Origin: Chitinophagales bacterium | Lineage (GTDB): Bacteria > Bacteroidota > Bacteroidia > Chitinophagales > UBA10324 | DNA: 12,513 nucleotides | NCBI GenBank assembly: GCA_026786335.1 | Contig: JAJAYG010000526.1 | Coordinates: 1 to 12,513, forward strand | Reading direction: 5' to 3' | Shown here: piece by piece, positions 1,431-8,684 of the stretch | Layout of the letters: the number at the start of each line of letters is the position of its first letter | How positions within the stretch are numbered: position 1 is the first letter of the stretch | Notes under the pieces: generated by a model | Database searches by the model: none | Told to the model about the DNA's origin: nothing | What the model saw: only the letters and a program-made list of their open reading frames with translations | Position numbers and translations under genes: made by a program

Positions 1431-2241
1431 TTCTGTTTCCCCTAAACATTTTATTTTCTTTTTTCTCATTGCTGCAATGCATCTTGCCGCAATTGTTGCG
1501 GGTAGCGGAGCTGAAATGGTGGTAACATTTACTAAACCTTTCTTACTGATTGCGCTACTTATTGTTTTCAGCCGGCTTACCCGCAACAGAAAAAATATTC
1601 AGATAAAATTTGTTTTTGCAGCCCTTATTTTTTCATGGTTCGGCGATGTTACTTTATTATTTCAGGAAATGAATCCAAATTATTTTCTCATTGGTTTAGT
1701 GTGTTTTCTTCTCGCTCATCTTGCGTACGTGATTTCATTTAAGCTGAGAACAAAATCAGGCATCAGCAACTCTCTGCCTTATAAGGAAGAGCCAGCGGGT
1801 ATTCTAAGAAAACATCCCTGGCTTATATTTTTATTTCTCGGCTATGCAGCAATTATTCTTTCAATCACTTATCATGGTTTGGGAGATATGCTTGTGCCAG
1901 TAATCGTTTACATGTGTGTAATACTCATGATGGGGCTTACGGCACTCAACCGCTTTGGAAAAGTTTCTTCAATAAGTTTTAAGGAAGTTTTTGCCGGCGC
2001 AATTTTTTTTATGCTCAGTGATTCGTTGTTAGCAATCAATAAATTTTCTCAGCCAATTCCTTCAGCATCATTCTTAATTATGTTTACTTACATTCTTGCA
2101 CAGTATTTAATTGTGAAAGGAATGTTGGATGAAGGGCAATGGAAAGAGATTATTACAAAAACCGGCGTGCCTGAAATTATAAAAGGTGAAATTTTAGAAG
2201 AAGGAGATCCTGAAATCACTTCGGCGGAAAAAAAACCTTAA
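1420..2241 (+). CDS. YhhN/TMEM86 family lysoplasmalogenase
   Basis: This is a 273-aa (272 from the second ATG) integral membrane protein with about eight hydrophobic helices. YhhN-family landmarks are visible: a KP pair after the second helix (39-40), FSWFGD (71-76) with its conserved Asp, FLLAHLAY (97-103), a helix with Tyr164, and GAIFFMLSDSLLAINKF (193-209) with Asp201. Characterised members (mammalian TMEM86B, Legionella YhhN) hydrolyse the vinyl-ether bond of lysoplasmalogens to a fatty aldehyde and a glycerophospho-base. The start is ATG 1420 or ATG 1423 (the sequence is ATGATGAATAA), so the gene overlaps the AGMO-like gene by 8-11 bp and is probably translationally coupled to it. Roughly 30 C-terminal residues after the last helix are charged and Glu-rich. 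The 3' end overlaps the convergent TonB-domain gene by 26 bp. The TTG further upstream (1366) is an unlikely start because it lies deep in the preceding gene. Confidence 0.88.
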   Translation: MMNNSVSPKHFIFFFLIAAMHLAAIVAGSGAEMVVTFTKPFLLIALLIVFSRLTRNRKNIQIKFVFAALIFSWFGDVTLLFQEMNPNYFLIGLVCFLLAHLAYVISFKLRTKSGISNSLPYKEEPAGILRKHPWLIFLFLGYAAIILSITYHGLGDMLVPVIVYMCVILMMGLTALNRFGKVSSISFKEVFAGAIFFMLSDSLLAINKFSQPIPSASFLIMFTYILAQYLIVKGMLDEGQWKEIITKTGVPEIIKGEILEEGDPEITSAEKKP

Positions 2242-2968
2242 TCGTAACCTTCACCCTTTTATCTTCTCCCTTGATTTGACCGGGAATCCATGTAGGCATT
2301 TGTTTGATAACGCGAATTGCTTCTGCGCCGCAGCCACCACCGATATCATGTTTAACTTGTACATCGCTCAGTGATCCGTTTTTTTCAACTACTGCTGTTA
2401 CTTCAACCTGCCCCATTATTTTATCGCGCTTTGCAGTGGCCGGGTATTTTGCATTTTCAGTCAGCCATGTTTTCTTCGCATCACTGCCACCCGGAAATTC
2501 GGGAGCCACCTCGGCACTTAAATATATTTTTGTGTCTTCTTTAACTACTACAGAATCTTCATCTGCTGTTAAGTCGCTTGCCTCATCCGTTTCTTCAGTA
2601 GCAATTTCATCCTCGTGCGCTCTTTGAACTGAATCAATAAAGTATTTTAAATGAAAATCACCCGACTTGTAATCAAACGTCATTTGCTCGGGAGAAAAAA
2701 GTGCACTGCATTCCTCATCATTGTAATTAAGAACTGTGTAATAGAAATCATTTTCCATTCGCTTGCTGTTCTTTACATCTAAGTATAAATGTGATTCACC
2801 TTGTTCCACAGTAATTTTTGTGCTGTCGATATAAATAACAGATGAAGTTCTGCTCGATGATTTTGATTTAACATCTACCCATCTCGATGAATAGAGCGTG
2901 AAAATTTGTGCTTGAGCAACTGCGAAAAATGAGATTAGCAAAATGGTTGCAAATACTTTTTTTTGCAT
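2216..2968 (-). CDS. Secreted TonB C-terminal domain protein
   Basis: This is a 250-aa protein with a clear Sec signal peptide (MQKKVFATILLISFFAVAQA, probable cut after A20). Residues about 22-115 have no fold I recognise. An acidic low-complexity linker follows (about 117-147, rich in E/D/T), then a TonB C-terminal domain at 155-248. Typical landmarks of that domain are EFPGG (157-161), W168, N172-YP, G186-QVEV, GGGC-AEA (210-217) and MPTWIPG (224-230). True energy-transducing TonB proteins keep an uncleaved N-terminal anchor and a Pro-rich periplasmic spacer. This one appears to have a cleavable signal and no Pro-rich spacer, so it may be a stand-alone periplasmic TonB_C protein rather than a partner of ExbB/ExbD. 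It starts 11 bp after the stop of the CotH gene upstream, so the two are probably co-transcribed. Its last 26 bp overlap the convergent lysoplasmalogenase gene. Confidence 0.82.
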   Translation of the reverse strand: MQKKVFATILLISFFAVAQAQIFTLYSSRWVDVKSKSSSRTSSVIYIDSTKITVEQGESHLYLDVKNSKRMENDFYYTVLNYNDEECSALFSPEQMTFDYKSGDFHLKYFIDSVQRAHEDEIATEETDEASDLTADEDSVVVKEDTKIYLSAEVAPEFPGGSDAKKTWLTENAKYPATAKRDKIMGQVEVTAVVEKNGSLSDVQVKHDIGGGCGAEAIRVIKQMPTWIPGQIKGEDKRVKVTIKVFFPPK

Positions 2969-5425: not shown

Positions 5426-7213
5426 ATGTACCGTACACACACTTGTGGTGAATTAAGATTGGAGCATGCAGGCAATACAGTAACATTGGCTGGCTGGGTG
5501 CATCGCATCCGTGATTTTGGTGGAATGAATTTTATTGATTTGCGTGATCGCTATGGAATAACACAATTGGTATTTAACCCCGAGCACAATGATGCTCTTG
5601 CTCAAAGCGCATCGCAGCTTGGCCGTGAGTTTGTAATTGCTGTAAAAGGAAAAGTAGTAGAACGTTCCAACAAAAATTTACAGATTCCAACAGGAGAAAT
5701 TGAAATAATAGTTGATGAACTCAATGTGCTGAATGCATCCATCACACCTCCATTTACCATTGAAGATGATACTGATGGTGGTGATGATCTGCGAATGAAA
5801 TACCGATACCTCGATCTGCGAAGAAATCCTTTACAACAAAATTTATTAAAGCGACATGAAGTGGCAAAAGCAGTTCGTGCATATATGGATGCACAAGGGT
5901 TTGCCGATGTTGAAACACCTTTCTTTATCAAGTCAACACCTGAAGGTGCAAGAGATTTTGTGGTGCCATCACGTTTAAATCCAGGGCAGTTTTACGCGCT
6001 GCCGCAATCACCGCAAACATTCAAGCAACTGTTGATGGTTAGTGGCTTCGACCGCTACTATCAGATTGTAAGATGTTTTCGCGATGAAGATTTAAGAGCC
6101 GATCGGCAGCCCGAGTTTACACAGATTGATTGCGAGATGGCTTTTGTTGAACGTGAAGATGTGCTGCAAATGTTTGAAGGCCTTGTAAAAAATGTTTTCA
6201 AAAAAGTAAAAGGAATAGAGTTGCCTGAATTCCCGCGAATGAGTTATGATGATGCAATGCTGTTTTATGGAAATGATAAACCCGACATCAGATTTGCAAT
6301 GAAGTTTGTGGCTTTGCGCGAGAGCACTCCCCTCTCCTTGGGAGAGGGGCAGGGGGTGAGGAAAAACAGTGTGATGATTTTTCCAACCGGCTTCAAAGTA
6401 TTTGATGATGCCGAAACAGTAATTGGAATTTGTGCAACAGGTTGTGCTGAATATTCACGCAAACAATTAGATGAACTCACAGAGTTTGTAAAGCGCCCGC
6501 AACTTGGTGCAAATGGTTTGGTGTACATCAAGTGCAATGCCGATGGAACATTCAAATCTTCGGTTGATAAATTTTATTCGCAAGAAGATTTAAAAAATAT
6601 TGCAGAGAAATTTTCTGCTAAAGCAGGTGATTTAATTTTAATTCTCGCAGGAGAAACTGCACGAACCAGAAAAGCGCTGAGTGAATTGCGGTTGGAAATG
6701 GGAAACAGATTAGGTCTGCGCAGCAAAGAAGAATTTAAACCGCTATGGGTTTTAGATTTTCCTTTATTAGAATTTGATGAGGAAGAAAAAAGATGGAATG
6801 CTATGCACCATCCTTTTACTTCATGGAGAAAAGAAGATGATGCGTTGCTTGAAACCGATCCCGGAAAAGTAAAAGCAAATGCTTACGATATTGTAATGAA
6901 TGGTGTTGAATTAGGCGGCGGTTCCATTCGCATTCACAACAGAAAAAATCAAGAGCGAATGTTTTCTGCATTGGGAATGTCGAAGGAGCAATACGATTAT
7001 AAGTTTGGTTTTATCCTTAATGCATTTGAATACGGTACCCCCCCGCACGGAGGAATTGCTTTCGGCTTCGATCGCTTCTGTTCAATGGTAACTGCCAATC
7101 AGGAAGGCATTCGTGACTTCATTGCTTTCCCTAAAAACAATATGGGAAGAGATATGATGCTCGATGCACCGAGTGATATTGATGAAAAGCAGAAGAAGGA
7201 GTTGGGATTGTAA
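5426..7213 (+). CDS. aspS: Aspartyl-tRNA synthetase
   Basis: This is a class II aminoacyl-tRNA synthetase of bacterial type, 595 aa, charging tRNA-Asp in the cytoplasm. Residues about 1-105 form the anticodon-binding OB fold ([11 protein letters not shown], then [15 protein letters not shown]). The catalytic core begins with [10 protein letters not shown] (124-133). [13 protein letters not shown] (171-183) and ALPQSPQ (191-197) follow. Motif 2 is [18 protein letters not shown] (218-235) and motif 3 contains GIAFGFDRF (543-551). GGGSIRIHN (497-505) is also typical. The bacterial GAD insertion domain occupies roughly 285-415. Within it, residues about 300-314 ([15 protein letters not shown]) do not fit the family and coincide with a palindromic DNA repeat, an apparent in-frame insertion that makes the protein slightly longer than usual. 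The downstream GFKVFDDAE and [14 protein letters not shown] are normal, so the frame is intact and the gene probably functional. The codons for [10 protein letters not shown] at its 3' end are echoed after the fic gene. Confidence 0.97.
6323..6364 (+). repeat. Palindromic repeat element inserted in frame inside aspS
   Basis: A perfect 9-bp inverted repeat (CCCCTCTCC at 6329-6337, GGAGAGGGG at 6341-6349, loop TTG) is followed by the G-rich tail CAGGGGGTGAGG (6350-6361). The block is strikingly GC-rich against its AT-rich surroundings and encodes [12 protein letters not shown] in the aspS frame. I recall near-identical sequence, giving peptides like PLSLGEGxGVR, as an interspersed small repeat in many bacterial genomes. 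The situation resembles Rickettsia palindromic elements lodged in genes. The exact insertion boundaries are estimated. Confidence 0.75.
7178..7206 (+). repeat. aspS 3'-end copy 1 of a direct repeat flanking fic
   Basis: These are the last codons of aspS ([10 protein letters not shown]). They match 26 of 29 bases at 8526-8554, on the far side of the fic gene, in the same orientation. This copy is the one used by the intact aspS. Confidence 0.7.
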
Positions 7214-7251: not shown

Positions 7252-7326
7252 CAAAGTAAAATAGCATTGTTCGTTATTTTACTTTGATGGCTTAAAGTAA
7301 AATAACTCAATTTCTTATTTTACTTT
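7252..7326 (+). promoter_or_regulatory. Two tandem inverted repeats (four AAAGTAAAATA half-sites): putative operator upstream of fic
   Basis: The first inverted repeat has perfect 12-bp arms, CAAAGTAAAATA (7252-7263) and TATTTTACTTTG (7275-7286), with an 11-nt spacer. The second has perfect 12-bp arms, AAAGTAAAATAA (7294-7305) and TTATTTTACTTT (7315-7326), with a 9-nt spacer. All four arms share the 11-mer AAAGTAAAATA. Corresponding arms of the two units are exactly 41 bp apart, and neighbouring half-sites are 22, 19 and 22 bp apart, about two helical turns each, so all would face the same side of the DNA. The last arm overlaps the -7 promoter match of fic. This layout fits a repressor operator, most simply for the winged helix at the C terminus of the Fic protein itself. 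The binding protein is inferred. Confidence 0.75.
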
Positions 7327-7328
7327 TG
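7321..7328 (+). promoter_or_regulatory. Candidate -7 promoter element of fic, inside the operator
   Basis: TACTTTTG matches TAnnTTTG exactly and lies 19 nt before the fic ATG, the same geometry as at the two genes downstream. Six of its eight bases belong to the last operator half-site, so occupancy of the site would block transcription. No good -33 motif is seen, because that region is occupied by the third half-site. Confidence 0.55.
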
Positions 7329-7347: not shown

Positions 7348-8484
7348 ATGGATGTTAATGACTTCAAATCAGGAATTTGGATACAGGCAGTAGGGTATCG
7401 TAATTTTCTTCCTGAAAAAATCAACCATGATTTTCATTGGGCTGATTCTGAATTGAATGAATTACTTGAAAGCGCCTCTCATATTTTGGGTGAATTAAAT
7501 GCTTATGCTGTTTTGGTTCCTGATGTAGATGTTTTCATTCGGGCTTATGTTGCCAAAGAGGCGGTTGTTTCAAGTAAGATTGAAGGCACACAAACCACCA
7601 TGCAGGAAGCGTTTATGCAAGAAAATGATTTGGCCCCTGAAAGAAAGAACGATCACCTTGAAGTAATAAACTACACTGCAGCAATGAATGATGCAATCAA
7701 GGAATTGAAAAAACTTCCTTTGTCAAATCGCCTTATAAAAAAAGCGCATCAACAATTATTACAAAGTGTTAGGGGTAAGCACAAAACTCCAGGCGAATTT
7801 AGAAGAAGCCCTAATTGGATTGGTGGAAGCGGATTAAAAGACGCTGTGTTTATTCCACCCTCTCATGAACATGTTGATGAGTTAATGAGCGACATGGAAT
7901 TATTTCTTCACAACAGAAATATTCACGTACCTCATCTTGTAAGAATTGCAATTGCTCACTATCAGTTTGAAACTATTCACCCATTTCTTGATGGCAATGG
8001 ACGAGTTGGGAGATTATTAATTACACTGTATTTAGTCAGCAATGGAAAACTCAGCAAACCACTTTTATACTTGTCAGATTTTTTTGAACGTCACAAAACA
8101 CTGTACTACGACAACCTGATGAGAGTGAGAACACACGGTGATTTACGTCAATGGCTTGTGTTTTTTTTAAGCGGAGTAATTGAAACGGGAGAAAGTGCAA
8201 TCAGTACATTGAAAAGAATAGTTATTTTGAAAGAGCGCTTGCTTGAAGATAAAGTAATGCTAATGGGAAAGAAAACAACGAATGCAATTCCATTATTGAA
8301 CTATCTTTTCAAACACCCTGCAACTAACACTAACCAAATTAGCAAGTCGTTAAACCTGACACACAAAACATCTGGTATTTTAATTTCAACATTTGAAGAA
8401 GCAGGTATTGTGAAAGAAATAACCGGCGCAGCAAGAGACCGCATTTTTATTTTCGATGCTTACCTAAAAATTTTCAGGACATAA
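7348..8484 (+). CDS. Fic family protein (class II AMP-transferase) with C-terminal winged helix
   Basis: This is a 378-aa cytoplasmic protein. An N-terminal Fic_N-type helical region (about 1-100) contains the autoinhibitory motif S75-SKI-E79-G80, matching [ST]xxxE[GN]; its position before the Fic core makes it class II. The Fic core (about 125-275) carries a complete catalytic motif HPFLDGNGRVGR at 211-222, with catalytic His211 and the phosphate/Mg-binding residues intact. The expected activity is transfer of AMP (or another nucleotide) to a hydroxyl side chain of a target protein. Residues about 310-370 look like a winged helix-turn-helix (NQISKSLNLTHKTSGILISTF, then a GIVKEITG-ARDRIF wing). 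Architecture and length resemble Shewanella SoFic (about 370 aa). There is no separate antitoxin gene; inhibition would be internal. The gene has its own operator-promoter and sits between two copies of the aspS tail, suggesting a later arrival. The target protein is unknown. Confidence 0.92.
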   Translation: MDVNDFKSGIWIQAVGYRNFLPEKINHDFHWADSELNELLESASHILGELNAYAVLVPDVDVFIRAYVAKEAVVSSKIEGTQTTMQEAFMQENDLAPERKNDHLEVINYTAAMNDAIKELKKLPLSNRLIKKAHQQLLQSVRGKHKTPGEFRRSPNWIGGSGLKDAVFIPPSHEHVDELMSDMELFLHNRNIHVPHLVRIAIAHYQFETIHPFLDGNGRVGRLLITLYLVSNGKLSKPLLYLSDFFERHKTLYYDNLMRVRTHGDLRQWLVFFLSGVIETGESAISTLKRIVILKERLLEDKVMLMGKKTTNAIPLLNYLFKHPATNTNQISKSLNLTHKTSGILISTFEEAGIVKEITGAARDRIFIFDAYLKIFRT

Positions 8485-8525
8485 TCATATTTCTGATAGG
8501 TATTTTTCCAAATCGGGAATCGAAA

Positions 8526-8554
8526 ATTGATGAAAGGCAGACGAAGGAGTTAGG
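8526..8554 (+). pseudogene. Remnant of an aspS 3' end downstream of fic (direct-repeat copy 2)
   Basis: Twenty-six of 29 bases match 7178-7206 in direct orientation. Read in the matching frame it gives IDERQTKELG against [10 protein letters not shown] in the intact aspS, and the codon phase is preserved throughout. The two other codon changes besides K-to-R and K-to-T are synonymous (TTG/TTA, GGA/GGT). The frame then runs on to a TAG at 8631-8633 without further resemblance. Nothing else in 8485-8684 looks like a gene. The simplest reading is a scar left when a fic-bearing segment entered at the 3' end of aspS, or when an imported aspS-fic allele replaced the resident gene. Confidence 0.65.
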
Positions 8555-8659
8555 TGCGGTAATGAGTAATATCCGAATTTCAATTCACTTCTCCTTTTTA
8601 CAAGTAATCTGCTTAGCATTTATTTATCATTAGTCGCTTCAATCATAATTAATTTTTAT

Positions 8660-8667
8660 TATTTTTG
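8660..8667 (+). promoter_or_regulatory. Candidate -7 promoter element of the repeat-propeller gene
   Basis: TATTTTTG matches TAnnTTTG exactly, 17 nt before the ATG at 8685. No clear -33 TTG is seen at standard spacing. The leader is short and contains no Shine-Dalgarno sequence, as is common in this phylum. Confidence 0.5.
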
Positions 8668-8684
8668 GTTTAAATATTTACACC

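Follow-up and report, generated by a model that had tools for sequence, protein, structure and literature searches.

Autoregulated toxin-antitoxin operators keep a toxic enzyme low by self-repression through palindromes. Among Fic enzymes, the closest tested case to the locus described here is CccR of Yersinia pseudotuberculosis, a class II enzyme that represses its own gene, with a C-terminal helix-turn-helix (HTH) that binds inverted repeats close to the promoter boxes of this gene; a dimer is required, in which the DNA-reading helices lie 70.2 Å apart (PMC9755527), or ~20.6 bp by our own arithmetic at 3.4 Å per bp. CbFic2, a class II Fic with a winged HTH, also binds DNA, with a proposed effect on its dimer state and activity; random DNA is reported to have been used in that work, with no specific site known (PMC10628234). 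SoFic is an anti-phage defence protein (PDB 3eqx, 3zcn), and the paper on EcSofic, whose main text does not contain the terms HTH or transcription, presents the C-terminal domain as regulating toxicity (PMC12249575).

We analysed a stretch of 12,513 nucleotides from a Chitinophagales bacterium (contig JAJAYG010000526.1; hereafter the window), in which a fic gene (7348-8484, forward strand) encodes a 378-aa protein and lies downstream of aspS (identified by eye). Ahead of fic, four copies of the 11-mer AAAGTAAAATA start at 7253, 7275, 7294 and 7316 on alternating strands and form two perfect 12-bp inverted repeats, which together make up the array (7252-7326). Palindrome 1 joins half-site 1 (7252-7263, forward) to half-site 2 (7275-7286, reverse) across an 11-nt gap, and palindrome 2 joins half-site 3 (7294-7305, forward) to half-site 4 (7315-7326, reverse) across a 9-nt gap, the 12-nt arms being 100% complementary in both. 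Along the array, the gaps separating the 12-bp arms are 11, 7 and 9 bp, successive 11-mers start at distances of 22, 19 and 22 bp, and the 33-nt palindrome units start 41 bp apart. The repeats with their common 11-mer, the 41-bp period and the 22/19/22 spacing had all been proposed in the original prediction and are reproduced from the coordinates. Half-site 4 overlaps a TAnnTTTG box, TACTTTTG (7321-7328, forward), which we take to be a likely Bacteroidota -7 element; the last arm had been predicted to cover this box, and since it stops at 7326 it spans the box minus its last two bases. The start of fic is 21 bases past the last arm. Of 44 array-bearing Bacteroidota loci, 11 have a TAnnTTTG box at their fourth half-site, vs 0.7 in shuffles, and the other 33 lack one there.

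Every one of the four exact 11-mers of the window lies inside the array, and with one mismatch allowed the window contains five matches vs 0.76 expected, a number reached by 0 of 200 shuffles. The four-site score of the array is at its ceiling (66/66), vs 51 for the best of 798 shuffled upstream regions. The exact repeats, the shuffled four-site scores and the 11-mer count against expectation rule out a chance origin of the array. As for CccR, the window has inverted repeats over the gene's own promoter, here a promoter recognised by its consensus box only. The CccR operator is reported as one palindrome made of two 10-bp boxes and a 26-bp spacer (~36 bp between centres), whereas the window has four half-sites ~20 bp apart; CccR is moreover reported as a secreted effector (PMC9755527).

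The window genome (a 2.9-Mb assembly, 72.85% complete) contains 14 copies of the 11-mer, including the 4 of this array, and a relaxed pair (AAAGTAAA-N14-20-TTTACTTT) is found at one further place, inside an ORF resembling a chromate transporter (named by eye). A scan of 395 Bacteroidota genomes found the exact pair (AAGTAAAATA-N9-13-TATTTTACTT) at 6 places, spread over 5 genomes; four of the six are immediately upstream of a fic orthologue (G000 twice, G064 and G264), and a reversed control pattern gave 0 matches in the 395 genomes. One of the other two places is flanked by an outer-membrane-like and a membrane ORF (genome G120; L265, 1501-1531), the second by transposase-like and helicase-like ORFs (genome G166; L267, 1501-1530), all named by eye. 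There is no sign of a genome-wide regulon site in the window genome, nor for the exact pair in the 395 Bacteroidota genomes. A motif absent upstream of orthologous fic genes and frequent elsewhere had been named as counter-evidence in the original prediction; what we found is a rare pair that stands mostly at fic.

Conservation of the layout was followed in 133 non-redundant, nearly full-length orthologues (at least 42% identity, the window counted in as L095), selected from 243 loci in which fic had been located. Of these orthologues, 25 have a 14-base direct repeat at a lag of 40, 14 at 41 and 2 at 42; no other lag between 15 and 74 is represented by more than one locus. When four half-sites of alternating orientation were modelled, 89/133 orthologues scored above the shuffled 99% level, and a three-site test was passed by 92/133, vs only 3/288 regions preceding non-fic ORFs of these loci; altogether, 99 orthologues passed either array test and 34 passed neither. 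The period was 40 or 41 bp in 159 of 174 measurements (87 arrays) and, between 13-bp windows, the convergent spacing was 19 or 20 bp in 142/150 cases and the divergent spacing 21 or 22 bp in 103/111; both vary by ~1 base, and the spacing does not tell whether one dimer spans a convergent or a divergent pair. Array-bearing loci include ones recorded as Lentisphaerae, Deltaproteobacteria, Methylobacter, Planctomycetota, Acidobacteriota and Poribacteria, many of them metagenome bins. Upstream of the fic gene of Tannerella forsythia (L068), three nearly identical 41-bp units stand in tandem, so arrays may exceed four half-sites. The fic gene closely follows a same-strand ORF (ending -60 to +50 of the fic start) in 16 of the 44 orthologues without a four-site array vs 2 of the 89 with one (Fisher p 2e-7), a distribution that suits an operator needed only when fic has its own promoter. 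In 28 of these 44 orthologues no close upstream ORF offers such an explanation; the three-site test accepts 10 of the 44. The sequence comparisons give good support to the view that the four-half-site array is a conserved operator belonging to the fic gene.

In a relative of the same family, G006, the corresponding position after an aspS-like gene holds a broken fic, which seems to have lost the whole stretch beginning with half-site 4 and reaching to codon ~270. Its half-sites 1-3 are identical to those of the window at 35/36 positions, vs 9/27 in the spacers, suggesting that the half-sites, kept while the spacers changed, are under selection. The fic remnant (L260, ~1891-2280, minus strand) contains a 91-aa ORF with the winged helix, which could still be a small DNA-binding protein. 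In the aspS gene of the window, an in-frame stretch (6329-6364, with a CTCTCCTTGGGAGAGGGGCAGGGGGTGAGG core) resembles an interspersed repeat; three similar copies are present on contig C442 of the same genome, and the stretch is missing from the aspS-like ORF of G006 (by eye).

By its motifs, the window protein (Fic_N 38-117, Fic 124-229) is predicted to be a class II Fic enzyme capable of AMP transfer: it carries the inhibitory motif SSKIEG at residues 75-80 and an intact Fic motif HPFLDGNGRVGR at 211-222, with most positions invariant in 24 aligned sequences (motif definitions as given in the CccR paper, PMC9755527). An AlphaFold2 model built on the same number of sequences (24 in the input alignment; mean pLDDT 73.5 for the protein, 78-93 in 10-residue blocks from 301 onward) places helices at 303-322, 328-334 and 339-351 and short strands at 356-357 and 367-368, in agreement with the predicted C-terminal winged HTH (residues 303-378; 8254-8484, forward strand); the helix at 339-351 (HKTSGILISTFEE; 8362-8400, forward strand) is the predicted recognition helix, from this model and from the half-site covariation described below. 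HTH_24 is matched by 11/24 aligned homologues and Pfam SoFic-like_C by 4/24, the window protein being in neither group. The PADLOC SoFic model matches the window protein over residues 16-376 (389.3 bits, E 4.9e-117) and phmmer aligns it with SoFic over 44-373; since its score for the NCBIfam SoFic equivalog (173.4 bits) is below the cut-off of 550, we call it SoFic-like, although PADLOC assigns it to SoFic. Directly downstream of fic, no ORF of at least 60 aa that could be a separate antitoxin is present in 8485-8684, a size limit under which a 47-aa AS1-like gene would fall. Unlike in toxin-antitoxin systems, enzyme, inhibitory helix and likely repressor would be one chain here. On Synechocystis plasmids, related Fic genes (hits H5-H8) directly adjoin a gene whose annotation is restriction endonuclease subunit S, and 1264 plasmid records hold a relative.

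The half-site word itself varies among orthologues (AAAGTAAAATAA, AAAGTAAACTAA, AACTTAAATAAG, TGCAAATATA, TTGACTA-like and CTCCATTATA), and the subtypes defined by it include AAAGTAAAATAA-type and CTTAAATAAG-type proteins. Conservation of AAAGTAAAATA as a family rule was dismissed because many orthologues use other words: the search upstream of fic homologues proposed in the original prediction recovered the layout, with AAAGTAAAATA as one of several words. We compared this variation with that of the protein, with half-site register and orientation fixed from the DNA only and a Mantel-type comparison conditioned on whole-protein distance. Across a set of 86 loci that includes the window, the top five 8-residue protein windows by agreement with operator distance all fell within residues 331-346, the best being 337-344 (partial rho 0.360, vs a permutation maximum of 0.23 in 300 permutations of every third protein window and 0.258 in 200 permutations of all protein windows). 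Among 378 x 13 residue-base pairs, the top one by bias-corrected information was K340 with half-site position 5, where A is found in 34/37 loci with lysine 340 and 11/49 with other residues; likewise, C at position 8 is found in 9/10 loci with lysine 339 and 7/76 with other residues. In pairs of loci chosen without common branches, base 5 differed in 3/31 when residue 340 was the same and in 13/20 when it was different. By single-pair permutation z-scores, several Fic-domain columns stood above or beside the helix (71 of the 100 best pairs in residues 1-300, 18 in 331-347), most likely through shared ancestry; these scores were set aside in favour of bias-corrected information and independent pairs because low-variation columns rank top in them.

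A held-out set of 45 further loci left 41 usable, 32 of them with an array. In these, the half-site was predicted with an identity of 0.748 from the training locus with the nearest helix, 0.679 from the nearest core and 0.630 at random (helix better in 17, core in 8) and, with core identity capped at 0.6, of 0.749, 0.572 and 0.611, respectively (helix better in 25, core in 6); C at position 8 was present in 5/7 loci with lysine 339 and 2/25 with other residues. In the first set, the helix predicted clearly better than the core under the 0.6 cap, the two were equal at 0.810 each without a cap (with the helix ahead in 27 and the core in 38), and they reached 0.770 for the helix and 0.769 for the core under a 0.75 cap (helix better in 33, core in 48). 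When all 118 loci were combined, the five best protein windows were again in 331-346 (0.309 vs a permutation maximum of 0.181). Smaller sets were less clear: the Mantel test on the 32 held-out loci gave no significant protein window and no helix window in the top seven, and the top six protein windows of 18 representatives included none from the helix. A helix window came second among 34 representatives (0.319, behind 215-222 at 0.325; permutation 95% 0.303) and among 45 high-score arrays (0.304, behind 259-266 at 0.307; permutation 95% 0.313). Taken with the structural model, these sequence relations point to the winged helix at the C-terminus of Fic itself as the likely reader of the array.

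The covariation could in principle reflect shared ancestry only, the operator and the gene travelling as one cassette, as might be suggested by the equal prediction from core and helix in the uncapped first set, by the loss of power in the reduced sets and by the non-significant Mantel test in the held-out set alone. We consider this improbable, given that the signal remains local to the recognition helix after whole-protein conditioning in the 118 loci, that the helix clearly beats the core under the 0.6 cap, and that base 5 so seldom changes without residue 340 in the independent pairs. AT-rich palindromes are bound by many bacterial regulators, and a different, unlinked regulator might read the array; variation of the half-site among orthologues in step with the helix of Fic itself, together with the rarity of the paired motif elsewhere in the window genome and in the 395 Bacteroidota genomes, makes this quite improbable. 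Still more remote is the view that the repeats are an RNA hairpin, a terminator or a repeated element rather than a protein site: perfect inverted repeats and the two of six paired motifs located away from fic would fit it, and against it stand the 40-41 bp period in most arrays regardless of sequence, the position over the promoter and the divergence of the spacers while the half-sites were kept.

A rival that shares the reader with our explanation deserves more weight, though we hold it to be unlikely: Fic would bind the array to control the enzyme (its dimer state, or AMPylation vs deAMPylation) or to activate the gene, repression being secondary or absent. Such a role was proposed for CbFic2 on DNA (PMC10628234), and two adjacent dimer sites could be expected to favour a fixed oligomer. 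The array, however, overlaps the promoter box, and in CccR, which represses, the regulatory and toxic activities are reported to be independent (PMC9755527).

In the explanation that we regard as highly probable, argued from sequence comparison, the array serves as operator for a single-gene Fic enzyme that regulates itself by reading the array with its own winged helix, in circuits that have diversified. Because the half-site word tends to change with the part of the enzyme expected to read it, Fic very likely controls its own gene, binding its own promoter as adjacent dimers and repressing it. The winged helix (residues 303-378, recognition helix from 339) would read the AAAGTAAAATA half-site, and two adjacent Fic dimers would cover the promoter and shut off fic transcription. 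The half-sites are ~20 bp apart, roughly two helical turns, and hence nearly on one face; this spacing and the ~20.6 bp between the CccR helices suggest one dimer per neighbouring pair and two dimers adjacent to each other, while repression is suggested by the position of the array over the promoter and by CccR, in which repression was measured (PMC9755527). DNA looping, which the original prediction had raised, is unnecessary with palindromes that are adjacent, ~four helical turns apart; the Fic-controlled operator that it had also put forward holds up as a conserved array tied to fic and probably read by its own winged helix. The cooperative binding and the switch through AMPylation state or the inhibitory helix that it also raised would be conjectural additions to this picture. 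Within a layout nearly fixed in the family (convergent spacing ~19-20 bp and divergent spacing ~21-22 bp, both taken between 13-bp windows, with a period of 40-41 bp), half-site word and recognition helix would have changed together, giving many separate self-repressing circuits. Through self-repression, an AMP-transferase that is harmful and probably defensive would stay at a low level until released by a signal. More speculatively, and we think this rather doubtful, the array might also be an activity switch, in which phased Fic dimers are locked in an inactive or deAMPylating state until phage attack on DNA or transcription releases active enzyme and derepresses the gene, differing words insulating the circuits from one another.

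Autorepression by a Fic enzyme with an HTH is already known from CccR (PMC9755527). Among the papers listed from full-text literature, mostly open journals, none reports a phased array at a fic gene beyond the single palindrome of CccR. The novelty seems to lie in two features, a phased multi-site array conserved across the SoFic-like family and a changing word that follows the recognition helix. The SoFic-like branch would thereby gain a likely regulator, itself, and a DNA target readable from sequence; the natural helix/half-site pairs form a set for testing a recognition code, and the model proposes what the C-terminal domain may do in SoFic-type defence proteins. The spacing rule may extend to more distant homologues. 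In a set of 63 homologues that are more distant or shorter at the N-terminus, direct repeats of 12 bases were found at lags of 30-31 bp (4), 40-41 bp (13), 43 bp (2) and 50-52 bp (7), with single repeats at 18, 70, 78, 81 and 82, vs a shuffled mean of 0.08 per lag, some of these loci being interrelated. Lags near 30, 41 and 51 bp correspond to about 3, 4 and 5 helical turns, and near-whole-turn spacing may thus be a wider rule. Several of the 51-bp cases have a GAAATA-like word in common and possibly belong to one lineage.
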